Shown piece after piece: positions 26,294 to 48,882 of a DNA stretch of 64,000 nt. The notes under the pieces were generated by a model. The model had not been told where the DNA came from, did not search any database, and worked only from the letters and a program-made list of their open reading frames with translations. A program made the position numbers and the translations under genes. This DNA comes from Terasakiella sp. SH-1 (GTDB lineage Bacteria > Pseudomonadota > Alphaproteobacteria > Rhodospirillales > Terasakiellaceae), in assembly GCF_004564135.1 (NCBI RefSeq), contig NZ_CP038255.1, positions 962,501 through 1,026,500 on the forward strand, in the 5' to 3' direction. Each line of letters starts with the position of its first letter. The first letter of the stretch is position 1.

Positions 26294-26461
26294 ATGAGCG
26301 TAATAGACCGTATCGAATCTCTTAAAACCAAGCACGCAGAACTTGCAGGAAAAATTGAAAAAGAGGAGGTCAGACCTCACCCCGACGACGCGCTCATACA
26401 CGATCTCAAACGACAGAAATTGAAAGTCAAAGACGAAATCAGCACTTTGGCTACACAATAA
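26294..26461 (+). CDS. DUF465 (YdcH-type) small protein, copy 2
   Basis: A 55-codon frame starting MSVIDRIESLKTKHAELAGK and ending LKVKDEISTLATQ. It has the same helix-turn-helix hairpin layout as the DUF465 protein at 24.8 kb (a basic Lys/Arg-rich second helix after a HPDD turn). GGGAGG lies about 10 bases before the ATG. It is 90 bases downstream of pfkA in the same direction and is followed 8 bases later by foldback element E1. Confidence 0.8.
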   Translation: MSVIDRIESLKTKHAELAGKIEKEEVRPHPDDALIHDLKRQKLKVKDEISTLATQ

Positions 26462-26469
26462 TACTGCGT

Positions 26470-26736
26470 TAGAGCGTGTCGCGTATAGGTAGGTTCATTT
26501 CATGATGTGAATTTTTGTCTTGAGTTAGGAAACTTGTGCAGAGCGATGCGGGGCATCGGTCAAACAATTTGACGCGACACAAGACAAAAAGACACATCAC
26601 CGAAGGCGCTTCATAGAAAAGGTATGGAGGGCGGCACCTTCCATTTGCGGTGAATGACACCGCCGCATGTAAGGTTTCTACCCATACCTTTTCTATGAAG
26701 CGTGAAAGTGAACCTACCTATACGCGACACGCTCTA
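26470..26736 (-). repeat. Foldback element E1 (three-arm palindromic repeat)
   Basis: Outer arms 26470-26497 and 26709-26736 are perfect 28-bp inverted repeats beginning and ending in TA. Inside are two stem-loops. One (B) has arms TTTTTGTCTTG (26512-26522) and CAAGACAAAAA (26580-26590), plus GATGTG/CACATC outside them. The other (C) has 17-bp arms at 26609-26625 and 26684-26700. The loops contain a CGATGC-CCC-GCATCG hairpin and a GCGGTG-TCATT-CACCGC type hairpin. The two core loops are about 90-95 percent identical to those of E2, in inverse orientation, while none of the arms match. No credible protein is encoded. Confidence 0.85.
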
Positions 26737-27067: not shown

Positions 27068-28804
27068 ATGAACAGTTTAAGATGGAAGCTTGTGCTTCCT
27101 GTGCCTGTCTTCACGCTTATTGCGGTTATCGGTATCTGGTTTTACACAACCAGTCTGGTTGAAGAGACGGCTGTAAGTGATGCGGTTGAACATGCAGAAT
27201 CAACCGTCAAAGAATTTAAGACCATTCGGGCGTATTATACGCAAAATGTCATTAAAAAAGTACTGGGAAGCGGTGCTTTAAAGCCGTCTATTGACCATGC
27301 TGGTGTTGAGGGCAAGGTCCCATTGCCTGCGACCATGATCCATGATTTGGCAAAACGTTTGAAAAAGGAAGGGTTGTATATCAACCTTTATTCCAAATAC
27401 CCGTTTCCAAACCGATCTTCTCGTCAGCTTGATGCGTTTCAGGCCCGTGCCTGGGATGAACTGTCGAAAAACCCTGATCAGGTCATGCATCAGATCAAAA
27501 GGGTGGGGGATAAAGATTTCGTACAGGTTGCCATTGCCGATAAAATGGTGGCTCAGGCATGTGTGACTTGTCACAACAAACGTGCGGACACCCCTAAAAA
27601 TGACTGGAAGCTGGGAGATGTACGCGGGATTTTGCAGGTTGATGTGGATATTTCAAATTCACTTGGCCGTTGGTCCGATTTTTCTGTGATCCTGACAACC
27701 TTGATTATTTTACTTGGTGCTGTTCTGTCCTTTATTGCCTTTTACATGGGGAATAATGTGGCGACACCCATTCGCCGTTTGACACGTTCTATGTCCAGCC
27801 TTGCCAATGGGGATTTGGATGTTGATGTGCCTGCACAGGACCGTCAGGATGAAATCGGTGATTTGTCACGCGGTGTGCAATATTGGAAAGAGGCTGCCAC
27901 AGATCGTCGTCGATTGGCACAGCAGGAACATGCCGAAGTTGCCAAGCGTCAGGAACGTCAGGAAAAGATTGCACAGCTGACGACTTCCTTTGATAATCAG
28001 GTTTCCCATGTTTTGGGTAAGGTGACGAATGCGGTCAGTACTTTAAACGGGTCTTCAACCAATTTGATGGCAAATGCTGAACAGACCAAGCAACAAAGTA
28101 CATCTGTTGCCAGTGTCGCCCAGCAGGCATCCTCTAATGTGGAGACGGTTTCTGCGGCCAGTGAACAGCTCTCGGCCTCTATTCAGGAAATTGCCCATCA
28201 GGTGACACAGTCTTCGACTTTGTTGACGTCAGCGGTTGAAGAAGTGAATGAAGCCAATCAAAAAGTGGTCGGTCTTGCCGATAGCGCGACAAAAATTGGT
28301 GAAGTTTTGAAATTGATCAACGATATTGCCGATCAGACCAACTTGTTGGCCTTGAACGCCACGATTGAATCTGCGCGTGCTGGTGAAGCGGGCAAAGGTT
28401 TTGCCGTTGTTGCCAGCGAGGTGAAAAACCTGGCCGGGCAGACCGGGCGGGCCACCGAAGAAATTGCTGCACAAATTCAGGCAATCCAGAATGAAACATC
28501 TGGTGCAGTACATGCTATTCAAGGAATTGCTGGTACGATGGAACGTGTCAATGAACTGGCAACAACCATTGCCAGTGCCGTTGAAGAACAAAGTGCTGCC
28601 ACAGGTGAGATTGCCCAGAATATCTATCAGGTTTCTGAAGGCGCGAGCGAGATTTCTGGTAATATTACCTCTGTCACCACTGCGGCAGGCCATACTGGCC
28701 AGACGGCACAGGAACTACTGGATGCCGCAGCATCGCTGACGGAAGAAAGTGATAACCTGAAAAACAGTGTTGATACGTTCTTGTCCAGTGTGCGTGATGC
28801 ATAA
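27068..28804 (+). CDS. Chemoreceptor with periplasmic heme-binding (Tll0287/DUF3365-like) domain
   Basis: 578 residues. A membrane helix at about 8-28, a periplasmic domain to about 205, a second helix ([20 protein letters not shown]), HAMP, then the MCP signalling domain with tip [20 protein letters not shown]. The periplasmic domain has one c-type heme motif, CVTCH (in [20 protein letters not shown]), followed by [15 protein letters not shown] as in Tll0287-like heme sensors. The heme suggests sensing of redox state or of a diatomic gas. The gene stands alone with a terminator downstream. Confidence 0.9.
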
Positions 28805-44834: not shown

Positions 44835-45796
44835 GTATGTTCACATCTATCCCTGTGGAAACCCTCATTGTTTGGGGGGCTGGCTTGCAGGCGTTTTTTG
44901 TCGTGTTGTTTGTCTGGCAAGCCTTGTTGGTACGTGACCTGAAATCCAAACGATTAAAGTCGATCCAACGCCAGCAGCAGGAATTGCAACATCAATCCTT
45001 AAGTGCCAGCAAGCACAGTTTAAAGCGCCCACAATTGATGAGTGTTGTGAATAAGGTGGTAGCGAAATTGAATGTTTTGCGTTCGCGTGAGGCAGAAAAG
45101 GTGGCTGATGATCTGGCGCGTGCAGGTTATCGTTCCAAGGAAGCCTTAAGTATTTATTTTTTCTTCCGCTTTTCTCTTCCCTTTGCTTTTGGCGGTATTG
45201 CCGTGGTCTGGCTGTATGTATTGGGCATGGGAGATATGCAGCCTATGGGCCGTATGTTGGTGGCGGTGGTGGCTGTATTGATCGGGGCCTATGTCCCAAA
45301 ACTTTATATCACCAATCAGGCACAAAAACGTGCCGAAGCGCTGCAAAAAGCCTTGCCTGATGCACTCGATTTGATGGTGGTTTGTGCCGAGGCTGGTTTA
45401 AGTCTGGATATGGCATTGAAACGGGTGGCAAAAGAAATGATGGGACCAAACCCACAAATGGCCGAAGAATTGAGCCTGACAGCCATGGAGTTGGGCTTTC
45501 TGCCCAATCGGGCTGATGCGCTGAACAACCTGAATAAACGCACAGACATGCCATCTTTGCGCGCTGTTGTGGGGACGCTGCAACAGACAGAACGTTATGG
45601 CACACCACTGGCACAAAGCCTGCGGGTGCTATCACAGGAATTTCGCACTGAACGGATGTTAAAGGCAGAAGAAAAGGCGGCAAAATTGCCTGCAACATTA
45701 ACTGTGCCGATGATTTTATTTATCATGCCAGCGTTATTTATTGTGCTGCTGGGGCCTGCGATCATTCGGGCAATCGCGGTGTTTCCCGATTTTTAA
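44831..45796 (+). CDS. tadC: Pilus inner-membrane platform protein TadC
   Basis: 321 residues, T2SSF domain with ALPDALDLMVVCAEAGLSLDMAL and LQQTERYGTPLAQSLRVLSQEFRTER, and C-terminal membrane helices. It begins inside the tadB stop (ATGA overlap), so translation is coupled. Its last four bases overlap the convergent tadD-like gene. Confidence 0.93.
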   Translation: MSMFTSIPVETLIVWGAGLQAFFVVLFVWQALLVRDLKSKRLKSIQRQQQELQHQSLSASKHSLKRPQLMSVVNKVVAKLNVLRSREAEKVADDLARAGYRSKEALSIYFFFRFSLPFAFGGIAVVWLYVLGMGDMQPMGRMLVAVVAVLIGAYVPKLYITNQAQKRAEALQKALPDALDLMVVCAEAGLSLDMALKRVAKEMMGPNPQMAEELSLTAMELGFLPNRADALNNLNKRTDMPSLRAVVGTLQQTERYGTPLAQSLRVLSQEFRTERMLKAEEKAAKLPATLTVPMILFIMPALFIVLLGPAIIRAIAVFPDF

Positions 45797-46572
45797 TTCC
45801 CAAAGACAGCTTTTGTGCGCTGGGCTTGTGTCATTGTGCGCAATCTTTCATAGACTTGCAGGTTATGTTTGACAGTCTCGCGATCCAGAATTTGTCCGGC
45901 AATCTGGGCTGCTGTTTCTGCATCTCCCTTAAGCCCGTAAAAAAGGGCTAAATTCAGGCGCAGGCGTTTGGGGGCTGTGCTGTCGTGACTATGGGGGCTG
46001 AGCATCTCAATCGCTTTGTCCAGATGACCGGACAGGGCCAAAGACAGGGCATAGTTGCTTTTTGCATCCAGAGAGGGAGCGTTGTGATTCAGAGCATTTC
46101 GGTATTGGGCCTGTGCGGCCTCATGCTGTCCCGTCATATCCAACGCCACGCCCAGGCTGTTCAGTAACATGGCATCATTGGGGGCAAGGGCAAGGCCGTT
46201 TTTAAACTGTATAATGGCTTGCGGCAATTTGTTGCGTTCAACCAGCACATTGCCATAAAGGCGGATCACTTCAACATTATCAGGCACATATTGAAGACCA
46301 TTGGCATAAATTTGTTCCGCTTTGTGCAAATCCCCTTCACGGCGGGCCATATCAGCCATGACGATCAATAGGTCCGGGTTTTGCGTGTCCAGACTATAGG
46401 CGCGTTGATAAAAGCCAAGGGCATTGGCGTGATCACCTGCTTTGGCTGTTCGTTCCCCAAGGCGCGTGAGTTGCTCGATTTGTTGTTGGACAGCCCCGCT
46501 TGTCTGAGGGGCAGGTGCGGGGGCACAGGCGGGAAGGACAAGCAGGGTGCCTAAAACAAGAAGGGATTTCAT
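45793..46572 (-). CDS. TadD-like TPR lipoprotein
   Basis: 259 residues. The signal peptide ends in the lipobox LPAC, followed by a Pro/Ala stretch and about five tetratricopeptide repeats (for example AGDHANALGFYQRAYSLDTQNPDLL). This is the layout of TadD/pilotin-like proteins that help the secretin reach the outer membrane. It is encoded opposite the rest of the locus and overlaps tadC by four bases, so it needs its own promoter, in 46573-46650. Confidence 0.85.
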   Translation of the reverse strand: MKSLLVLGTLLVLPACAPAPAPQTSGAVQQQIEQLTRLGERTAKAGDHANALGFYQRAYSLDTQNPDLLIVMADMARREGDLHKAEQIYANGLQYVPDNVEVIRLYGNVLVERNKLPQAIIQFKNGLALAPNDAMLLNSLGVALDMTGQHEAAQAQYRNALNHNAPSLDAKSNYALSLALSGHLDKAIEMLSPHSHDSTAPKRLRLNLALFYGLKGDAETAAQIAGQILDRETVKHNLQVYERLRTMTQAQRTKAVFGN

Positions 46573-46643: not shown

Positions 46644-46680
46644 TAAAAAAAGTCGTGTGCCATAATGAAGACACACGACT
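46644..46680 (-). terminator. Terminator downstream of the chemoreceptor gene at 47-48.7 kb
   Basis: AGTCGTGTG and CACACGACT form a 9-bp stem with a U-run on the minus strand. It lies beyond element E2, so a chemoreceptor transcript would run through the whole foldback element before stopping. Confidence 0.85.
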
Positions 46681-46945
46681 ACAGCTCTTTTCTCTAAATC
46701 TGACCCGCTTTCACGTTTATCTCAAACAATGTGGGTAGAAACCTTGCATGTGGCGGTGTTATTCACCGCAAATGGAAGGTGCCGCCCTCCACATTGTTTG
46801 AGATAAACGCCTCTGGTGGGCCTTATCTGTGCTTGTGTCGCGTCAATTTGCTTAACCGATGCCCCGCATCGCTTTGCACAATTTTCCTAACTCAAGCACA
46901 GATAAGGCTCCATGAAACGGGTCAGATTTAGAGAAAAGAGCTGTA
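46680..46945 (+). repeat. Foldback element E2 (three-arm palindromic repeat)
   Basis: Perfect 28-bp outer arms at 46680-46707 and 46918-46945, beginning and ending in TA. Stem-loop C has 17-bp arms (46716-46732 and 46791-46807) around a 58-base core that differs from E1 at three positions. Stem-loop B has arms of 16 bp (46820-46835 and 46893-46908) around a 57-base loop close to that of E1. CTTTCACG and CATGAAA next to the outer arms are also shared. All arm sequences differ wholly from those of E1. Confidence 0.87.
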
Positions 46946-46977: not shown

Positions 46978-48720
46978 TTAAGACGCTGTACGGTTCATTT
47001 CAATTTCCTGTGTGGCAGAGCGCACAACGTCATTGAGGTGATCAACAAGATATTGGATGCCCTGAGAGATCGAGCTGGCCCCTTCTGTAACGACTGTGGC
47101 TTTGTTGGCCGCAGCAAGTGACTTGCCGGAAACTTCAGAAATTTGATCGGCTACCTGTTTGGAAGCATGTGTATTTTCCTGAACGTTGGAGCTGATCTCA
47201 ATCGTTGCCTGAGATTGTGAATCAATTGTATCACGCACTGCCTGAGTGGTTTCAGTCATCTGTTTCAGGATATTTGCGATTTTGCTGATTTCCTGTACGC
47301 TGCGAGTACTGTCTTGTTGAATGGCACTGACTTGCGCAGAAATCTCTTCGGTGGCCCGGCTGGTTTGAACGGCCAGATTTTTCACTTCGGAAGCCACAAC
47401 GGCAAAGCCTTTGCCAGCTTCCCCAGCACGGGCGGCTTCGATGGTGGCGTTGAGGGCCAGAAGGTTGGTTTGTGCTGCAATATCCTGAATCAGGGTGACA
47501 ATATCACCGATGCTCACAGCAGCTTCGTCCAGTCCTGAAATGGTACGTGCAGATTGTTCAGCTTGGGTGCTTGCTTCGTTGGCAATGGCAAACTGATTTT
47601 CAACCTGTTGTAAAATGGCGTTGATGGAGCTGCTGAGTTCTTCGGTTGCAGCCCCCACACTTTGTGAATTGCTTAAAGAATCTTCTGCTGCAACGGCAAC
47701 GGACTGGGAATAGTCAGTTGTTTCTGTTGCTGAAAGATGCATGTCACTGACAGCAGATTGCATTTTGGAGACTTCTGCTGTGACTTTTTCCAAAGCAGAA
47801 CGGGATTCTTCCTGCACCTTGTTAGCCATGTTGGAAAGGGCAAAACGACGCTCTTCGGCTGATTTCTCATCTTGAAGGCGCTGTTGTCTTTTCAGTTCTT
47901 CATTTTCGGTGGTTTGTTGTTTGAACACATCCAGTGCACGGCCCATGCTGCCCAGTTCATCCTTGCGGCTGGCTTCTGGCACGTCAAAGTCAAGAATACC
48001 CTTGGCAAGCATGGTCATTTTTTCGGTCATGCGCGCAATGTTGCGGCTGATCCCATTGGCTGTGAAAAAGGCAAATAGCCCCAAAATGATGGCAAGAAGA
48101 GCAGGGATAAAGGAAAGGGACTTAGCTTGTGACAGGATGTCTTCTGTTTCCTGTGCATTCTTTTGTGCATCCAGTGCCAGCTGTTTGACATCTTTATCAA
48201 TGATGGCCTGAAACTTATCCATTGTTTCCTGAATGGCGGCAGCAACCTCGTCAAAGGCGGCCATGGTTTTATTACCCGCAGCTGGCCCCCCGGCAATATA
48301 GGCTTTTGCCATCACGACCCCTGTTTCGTAATAGGGATCAAAAACATCGTTCAGGCTGTTAATGATTGTGTTGAGTTCGCTGTTGTTGAAAGGCTGGGCA
48401 AGCTTTTTGATCTTTTCCACATTCTGTTTAAACAACTGGGCATTGGCTTCGGCTTCGTCAAAGCCATCGTTGAGCCCATCCAGCCCACGTGTGGCAGAAA
48501 TATCGGTCAGCCATTGCTGCACCTGCACGGTATTGAGCTTCAAATCTTTGGCAGAAGAAACCAGGGGGAGAATATTATGGGAAATCTTCTCGCTATTATG
48601 TTTAAGTTGATTCGCATTGTGATACACAGAATCAAATTGCGTAAGTGTAAAACCAATGGAGGCAATCACCATTATGGTTAGGGAAAGCGCCGAAAGCAGC
48701 AGCTTTTGCTTGATAGACAT
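46978..48720 (-). CDS. Methyl-accepting chemotaxis protein with long helical periplasmic domain
   Basis: 580 residues. One membrane helix at about 8-28, a periplasmic all-helical domain of about 150 residues (4HB/HBM-like, with [20 protein letters not shown] near its middle), a second helix ([20 protein letters not shown]), HAMP, and the signalling domain with [20 protein letters not shown]. The start is the ATG at 48720; upstream in-frame codons include only TTG and GTG. Ligand unknown. The transcript continues into foldback element E2. Confidence 0.9.
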
Positions 48721-48882
48721 CTTATTCACCAATCTCAAATTTTTATGATTTAAAGAAAGAGCGTATATAACTTGAAATGGAAAATAAAGTTTAAATTACG
48801 TATTTTTACTGTTATATAATAAGTCTTAAAATTATTATAATTTAAGTTTTTGCTAAATGGTAGATAAGGATTTTGAGCTGTT

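Follow-up and report, generated by a model that had tools for sequence, protein, structure and literature searches.

How can a DNA element keep its hairpin cores nearly unchanged while both sides of its helices become unrelated? This question is raised by two elements, E1 and E2, in a stretch of 64,000 nucleotides from Terasakiella sp. SH-1 (contig NZ_CP038255.1, positions 962,501 to 1,026,500), hereafter the window, which is the whole stretch of DNA that was analysed; the genome itself (G000) is one contig of 3.83 Mb. The original prediction was that E1 and E2 share two hairpin cores within unrelated, self-paired arms, and this has been borne out. The two elements belong to a family that is large in proteobacteria and apparently undescribed, as none of the papers listed in searches of open-licence PubMed Central looked to be about it. 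In our best reading, which we consider fairly probable, the family is structure-conserved, non-autonomous mobile DNA of the MITE type, a reading that includes a transposase acting in trans and core exchange.

Anatomy of E1 and E2

E1 occupies positions 26470..26736 on the plus strand (267 bp, the TA at both ends included). The 5' side of its outer arm, a terminal inverted repeat starting with TA, lies at 26470..26497, and all 28 of its 28 bases are paired with the 3' side at 26709..26736, which ends in TA. Inside this helix, the fold on the same strand contains a B hairpin (arm and core, 26503..26599) and a C hairpin (arm and core, 26606..26703), separated by a linker at 26600..26605 that is part of CCGAAGG. 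The B core at 26518..26585 is a 68-nt module scoring 83.5 bits with the covariance model R1 described below, and the C core covers 58 nt at 26626..26683. E2 lies on the minus strand at 46680..46945 (266 bp, with TA at both ends) and has its B core at 46830..46897 (82.2 bits) and its 58-nt C core at 46733..46790. Each element folds into an outer helix around two hairpins. The predicted fold of E1 has an energy of -150 kcal/mol on the plus strand and -146 kcal/mol on the other strand, the latter with z = -18 relative to 100 dinucleotide shuffles.

Both elements are intergenic. E1 is flanked by a small ORF whose stop was read at 26459-26461 and by an ORF at 27068 that appears, by reading, to be chemoreceptor-like; E2 is flanked by minus-strand ORFs at 46978-48738 and 45793-46572.

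The C cores were predicted to be 58 bases long with three differences, and exactly three of the 58 bases differ (95% identity over 60 in BLAST). The B cores, expected to be about as close, are a little less so (92% identity over 65). The helices were predicted to be unrelated between the copies and paired within each copy. This stands for the outer arms, as the left outer arm of E1 matches the right arm of E2 at 36%, whereas arms match their own partners at 100% in both elements. The 17-nt B arms match their own partners at 88% in E1 and 94% in E2 and are therefore imperfectly paired. Homology between E1 and E2 is limited to the cores and junctions.

A 68-nt module with covarying helices

The covariance model R1 describes the 68-nt B core and was built on a gap-free alignment of 24 sequences and 68 columns (E1, E2-type, F, G009 and g29). 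The rows are B cores plus reverse-complemented C cores of genus g29 elements, and neither E1 nor E2 contributed its C core. Standard pairs make up 90.6% of the 576 pair cells, and 18 of the 24 pairs change on both sides. Such two-sided changes number 128 cells, where shuffles average 45 and slid controls give 10-35, with the reservations that related rows inflate these counts and that the structure, which was read from the fold of one aligned sequence, is favoured in the slid control. The excess over shuffles agrees with the prediction that the helices change on both sides.

In the window, R1 with default filters finds the two B cores only (E<=1). Run unfiltered on 401 bases, it matches the E1 C core weakly on the minus strand at 26620..26688, as a diverged module in reverse orientation (8.5 bits, E 0.052). 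Because this match extends end to end but scores so low, the second hairpin of E1 and E2 is likely, rather than proven, to be a second copy of the module. In g29-type elements both modules are clear, the second being offset by about 103 bases and lying on the opposite strand. Among 100 distinct elements, the second module is clear as one of an inverted pair in 69, has the same orientation in 4 (4 of the 73 with a clear second module) and is undecided in 27.

Short motifs were counted in 33 representatives, defined by outer arms less than 75% alike. GTAG is present at the 5' side of 4/33 best modules and 7/33 second modules, and the latter include the C cores of both E1 and E2. CGTC stands beside none of the 33 best modules. 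GANTC has 9 sites in the 33 representatives, compared with about 34 expected from length alone; it occurs somewhere in 7/33 elements. At locus L281, around 1390-1430, the hairpin tip is enlarged into a run of GATGCGGCGGCATCC-like units.

Range and size of the family

How widely is this module distributed? R1 matches were found in 127 of 297 genomes and 55 of 111 genera in the order (E<=0.01), in 42 of 385 genomes and 35 of 277 genera in the class (E<=0.0001), and in 24 of 398 genomes and 19 of 213 genera in the phylum (E<=0.0001). Eleven of these last 24 genomes are labelled outside the class, and the full design is found outside the class at L325, L332 and L333 (264, 269 and 270 bp). Named matches include records from Thalassospira, Rhodobiaceae, Tepidamorphus and Emcibacter. 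BLAST with E1 reached 23 of the 297 genomes of the order, against the 127 reached by the covariance model; since the ends vary and the inner fold is what unites the elements, plain sequence searches miss most of them. An exact 22-base pattern from B gave 39 stretches in genome contigs, and an exact-pattern scan with 25 bases of the C core gave nothing in viral or genome contigs.

In the usual design, two facing hairpins lie within a terminal inverted repeat that begins with TA and measures about 28 bp. The 100 elements were assembled with lengths of about 200-325 allowed, and 95 of them measure 263-274 bp. Of 15 loci inspected among the matches from the phylum, five lack a long outer arm and one did not have the length needed for a judgement. 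At L327 and L328 (outside the class) and at L321 (inside it), a single module lies within an outer helix; these forms measure 154-162 bp, a size near that of a 161-bp deletion form in G000, L029. At L222, L225 and L050, a lone element end stands without the remainder. The family is biased towards intergenic DNA: among 78 elements with 1-kb flanks, 11 lie inside an ORF of at least 150 aa, as do 823 of 1190 positions drawn at random from these loci. An origin from plasmids or phages was considered and rejected, as E2 has no match in the plasmid and phage collections at E<=1e-5 and the 65-nt module gave one match in a Thalassospira plasmid and one short match in Burkholderia.

Copies in the Terasakiella genome

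Within G000, full E1 arms are found in E1 only, and C1:1196267 has a solo copy of the outer arm's first 22 nt. The arms of E2 are common to five near-full copies, E2 counted, and the four copies of type F (L030-L033) share arms of their own around a related B core. The arms are thus a property of the subfamily and not of the single copy. The original prediction had named shared arms in other copies as evidence against itself, and such sharing is found in part, in the five E2-type and four F copies. A borrowing of E1 arms from elsewhere in the genome was also examined and rejected. Outside the family, searches with the halves (E<=10) gave only matches of 14-24 nt with E 0.2 or worse, and the search with whole E1 (E<=0.001) gave one solo outer end of 22 nt.

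Shortened forms include L006, which lacks the B core, L029, which lacks the C core, and the truncated E2-type element L034, which is directly adjoined by further sequence beginning TAGAGCGTGTCATCCTCGCGCAAGC. A mini form, L223 (G000 C1:3126197), reads TACAGCTCTTTTCTCTAAATCTGAAAAGAGCTGTA and consists of the element ends with nearly all between them lost. Some copies lack the TA on one side. Among five congeners, R1 matches were found in G002 only (2 at E<=0.1), and a BLAST search with E1 (E<=0.001) matched none of the five.

Insertion at TA and inheritance of the arms

Movement of the family is best seen in G181, inferred to be a Thalassospira. Its terminal repeat is present 55 times: 20 pairs have a spacing of exactly 240, three pairs are closer and nine sites are single; 20 of 21 copies of 255-280 bp are 267 bp long, and shorter forms measure 72, 148 and 231 bp. 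For L121, the empty site in three genomes has one TA and the filled site has two. For L128, whose first alignment was poor, the empty L266 site aligns gap-free at the junction, and for L131 this holds for one of three compared sites. Insertion at TA with duplication of TA is thereby shown at two Thalassospira-type sites, which supports the suggestion that the TA ends are a target duplication, and from these two empty sites it follows that the element works like a MITE. The terminal inverted repeats with TA ends are present as well, within the MITE range of 4-30 bp.

The 19 full-length G181 copies form two subfamilies (I with 13 copies and II with 6; one further copy is unassigned) with the same arms, inherited arm mismatches included. 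At position 9, subfamily I has a G-T mispair in 9/13 copies, A-C in 2/13 and A-T in 2/13. Other new arm changes in the 19 copies comprise eight one-sided changes, by our own count, and one two-sided change (L130, positions 7 and 261). As most new changes are one-sided, copying between the arms is at best occasional. These copies also bear on the proposal that arms are made anew with each mobilisation, by fold-back synthesis on a template or by taking up target sequence. Such rewriting would account for E1 and E2, whose arms are near the random level and whose cores are close. However, subfamily copies in new sites keep their arms and even the mismatches in them, and the E2-type and F-type copies likewise keep theirs, so the arms are not rewritten at each move and the proposal has become very improbable.

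The hairpins can also turn around. Compared with its sister L121, L122 has 31 differences, which fall to 2 after one segment containing the C hairpin is inverted. The sister copies are otherwise nearly identical, and the inversion is recent. In L063, L109 and L114, too, the second hairpin is turned around from its usual orientation. Together with the modules of same orientation, the L122 inversion indicates that inverted arms recombine or switch template, and it is suggested that they also keep each other matched in this way.

Divergence of arms and cores

Across the 33 representatives, the outer arms match at 93% within an element and at 41% between elements. The inner arms match at 0.68 and 0.75 within and at 0.37 and 0.38 between, the within-values being low estimates because these arms were cut at fixed places. 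A covariance-model search thus retrieved what had been forecast, namely many copies with conserved loops and fixed lengths and with arms that are unrelated but paired.

Does this pattern exceed ordinary drift, as originally asserted? For the family as a whole, the assertion is too strong. Over 4,950 element pairs, arm distance increases with core distance, with a median arm distance of 0.17 at cores 5-8% apart and 0.24 at cores 8-11% apart, and in the whole set the arms reach the random level earlier than the cores. It holds better for E1 and E2, which are the exception. When cores differ by 5-11%, the arm distance is under about 0.33 in 90% of pairs. E1 and the five E2-type elements, a comparison that represents one event seen five times, have core distances of 0.09-0.11 (B) and 0.05-0.09 (C) and arm distances of 0.60-0.62 (outer), 0.47-0.56 (B) and 0.47-0.53 (C), the random level being about 0.65 and 0.63. 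The E1-E2 pair is therefore a true outlier, with close cores and arms near the random level, and the impression that its arms had been replaced wholesale has held. When single hairpins were compared, the E1 B hairpin again stood out; the C cores of E1 and E2 fell under the score limit and were left out of this comparison. Outliers involving L133 (outer distance 1.00 or 0.73) were taken to be extraction faults, and those involving L094 to reflect a shift of a shared TTTTGGCG. The pair L074-L140 has a first core distance of 0.02 and a second of 0.23.

Two accounts of the outlier have to be weighed. In the first, E1 and E2 are simply old subfamilies whose cores are under purifying selection and whose arms are held by pairing alone, with no exchange. 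That arms become random before cores over the whole set speaks for it, as does the conservation of many core positions across genera. On the other hand, E1-E2 is a clear exception to the arm distances usual at such core distances, and the two elements also have the C-core stems in common, a similarity beyond what pairing alone would maintain. We regard this account as possible but lean against it. In the second, subfamilies with different arms would have exchanged or homogenised similar cores, so that in E1 the cores would look young and the arms old. The restriction of E1-E2 homology to cores and junctions favours it. Core exchange or homogenisation between subfamilies is probably the cause of the E1-E2 pattern, a reading drawn from one event, with selection on the cores nearly as likely.

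DNA or RNA

Strong covariation and constant core length would also be expected if the outer helix and the two hairpin modules formed a structured RNA that acts in cis, as in a 3' UTR, or in trans, with mobility being secondary. By eye, several copies lie close behind stop codons. The B-C junction reads CCTNCGG, the form of an RNA tetraloop, in 69 of 88 elements oriented by that same pattern (12 of 100 could not be oriented), and since the orientation relied on it, the C(TNCG)G appearance is in part a product of the method. In the outer arms, G-T mispairs exceed A-C mispairs on the B-first strand (60 vs 25 in 71 elements), and after orientation by the junction loop, uncollapsed, the counts are 86 vs 52. 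However, once collapsed by arm cluster, they become 47 vs 39, with 13 clusters against 11 and 9 ties, and RNA folding energies split the clusters 16 to 17 between the two strands. The family tolerates inverted C hairpins, and Rfam gave no match, either for the window at gathering score or for three loci at E<=1. An RNA read from one strand was therefore set aside, as the early G-T excess shrank after orientation and collapse and the energies show no side. The strand data fit a DNA structure and give little support to a one-strand RNA; a structured RNA of any kind is doubtful in our judgement.

Search for a mobilising partner

If the family is moved in trans, what moves it? TA duplication and terminal repeats recall IS630/Tc1-type insertion sequences, and the elements could be derivatives of a particular one, in which the inner hairpins are incidental. 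G260, a genome with R1 elements, has one open DDE_3 (IS630-type) gene, and G000 has one broken copy. The latter, at C1:3586552-3586971, is broken by a TAG and is the only DDE_3 match of its genome. Against such a derivation, the inner modules are the conserved part of the family and the terminal repeats the variable part; G181, with its many young copies, has no DDE_3 match, nor does G103; and a scan around the G000 and G260 genes, the two DDE_3 genes found, revealed no TA-ended inverted ends. We consider it quite unlikely. Six terminal repeats were also compared with plasmids. Five had no match at E<=1, and the sixth matched weakly in a Catenovulum record (E 0.3) with no feature beneath; no insertion sequence was found. 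These searches, for DDE_3 in four genomes and for terminal repeats in plasmids, yielded neither a transposase partner nor a long element sharing the ends.

Proposed mechanism

In the favoured reading of MITE-type mobile DNA, each element of about 267 bp consists of a terminal repeat of about 28 bp that begins with TA and two facing imperfect hairpins, which in most elements examined are recognisable as copies of one 68-nt module in opposite orientation, clearly so in E1 and E2 for B only. A transposase acting in trans would move the element. In relatives, it has been shown that elements insert at TA with duplication, spread as copies with unchanged arms and occasionally have a hairpin inverted, and that over longer times the helices change on both sides, with core positions and lengths kept. 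Some protein may recognise the folded single strand or cruciform and not the helix sequence, and the inverted arms may recombine or copy one another, which would produce hairpin inversions and help the arms to stay matched.

Integron attC sites, for comparison, carry R and L boxes that IntI recognises on the folded bottom strand. More tentatively, the family may exemplify a widespread class of elements recognised by shape, in which hairpin modules in single-stranded or cruciform DNA are the enzyme substrate, the arms are free to change and are copied to stay matched, and the cores can be swapped. If the fold is indeed recognised, it would offer a new handle on the movement of MITEs and on why palindromes stay matched, and the series of compensated arms would provide natural test material.

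Comparison with known repeats

The family shows most of the MITE features examined. REP sequences are palindromes of 20-40 bp with a GTAG or CGTC tag beside the hairpin and are associated with a RAYT transposase. The E1 family resembles REP/BIME in its inverted pairs of imperfect hairpins between genes and in the GTAG 5' of some modules, but its module is 68 nt long and lies inside a terminal repeat with TA duplication. According to a review, the CIR repeats known from Caulobacter and Brucella are about 110 bp long with unpaired ends and GANTC in a loop (PMC2229807). They are like the E1 family in being alphaproteobacterial and intergenic and in having two hairpin arms and a linker; going by that description, they differ from it in that E1 family elements are about 267 bp long, have an outer helix and contain GANTC in 0/33 module cores. 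In the same review, RUP, Correia/NEMIS and ERIC are given a length of about 100-200 bp, and their transcripts are said to form long stem-loops (PMC2229807). They share with the E1 family a small size, non-coding and intergenic nature, terminal inverted repeats, TA ends and a high degree of folding, whereas the E1 family conserves its inner modules and has a terminal repeat that differs among subfamilies and genera. The Coxiella QMITEs are also long palindromic MITEs, with small-RNA transcripts, and the portion of their description used here mentions no twin module (PMC5896051).

Sequence, mostly that of the ends, is the common basis for distinguishing mobile repeats; here, elements of many genera, in more than one class, are united by an inner fold. 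The family is unusual in conserving this inner fold and not its ends, and E1 and E2 are unusual in combining young-looking cores with old-looking arms.
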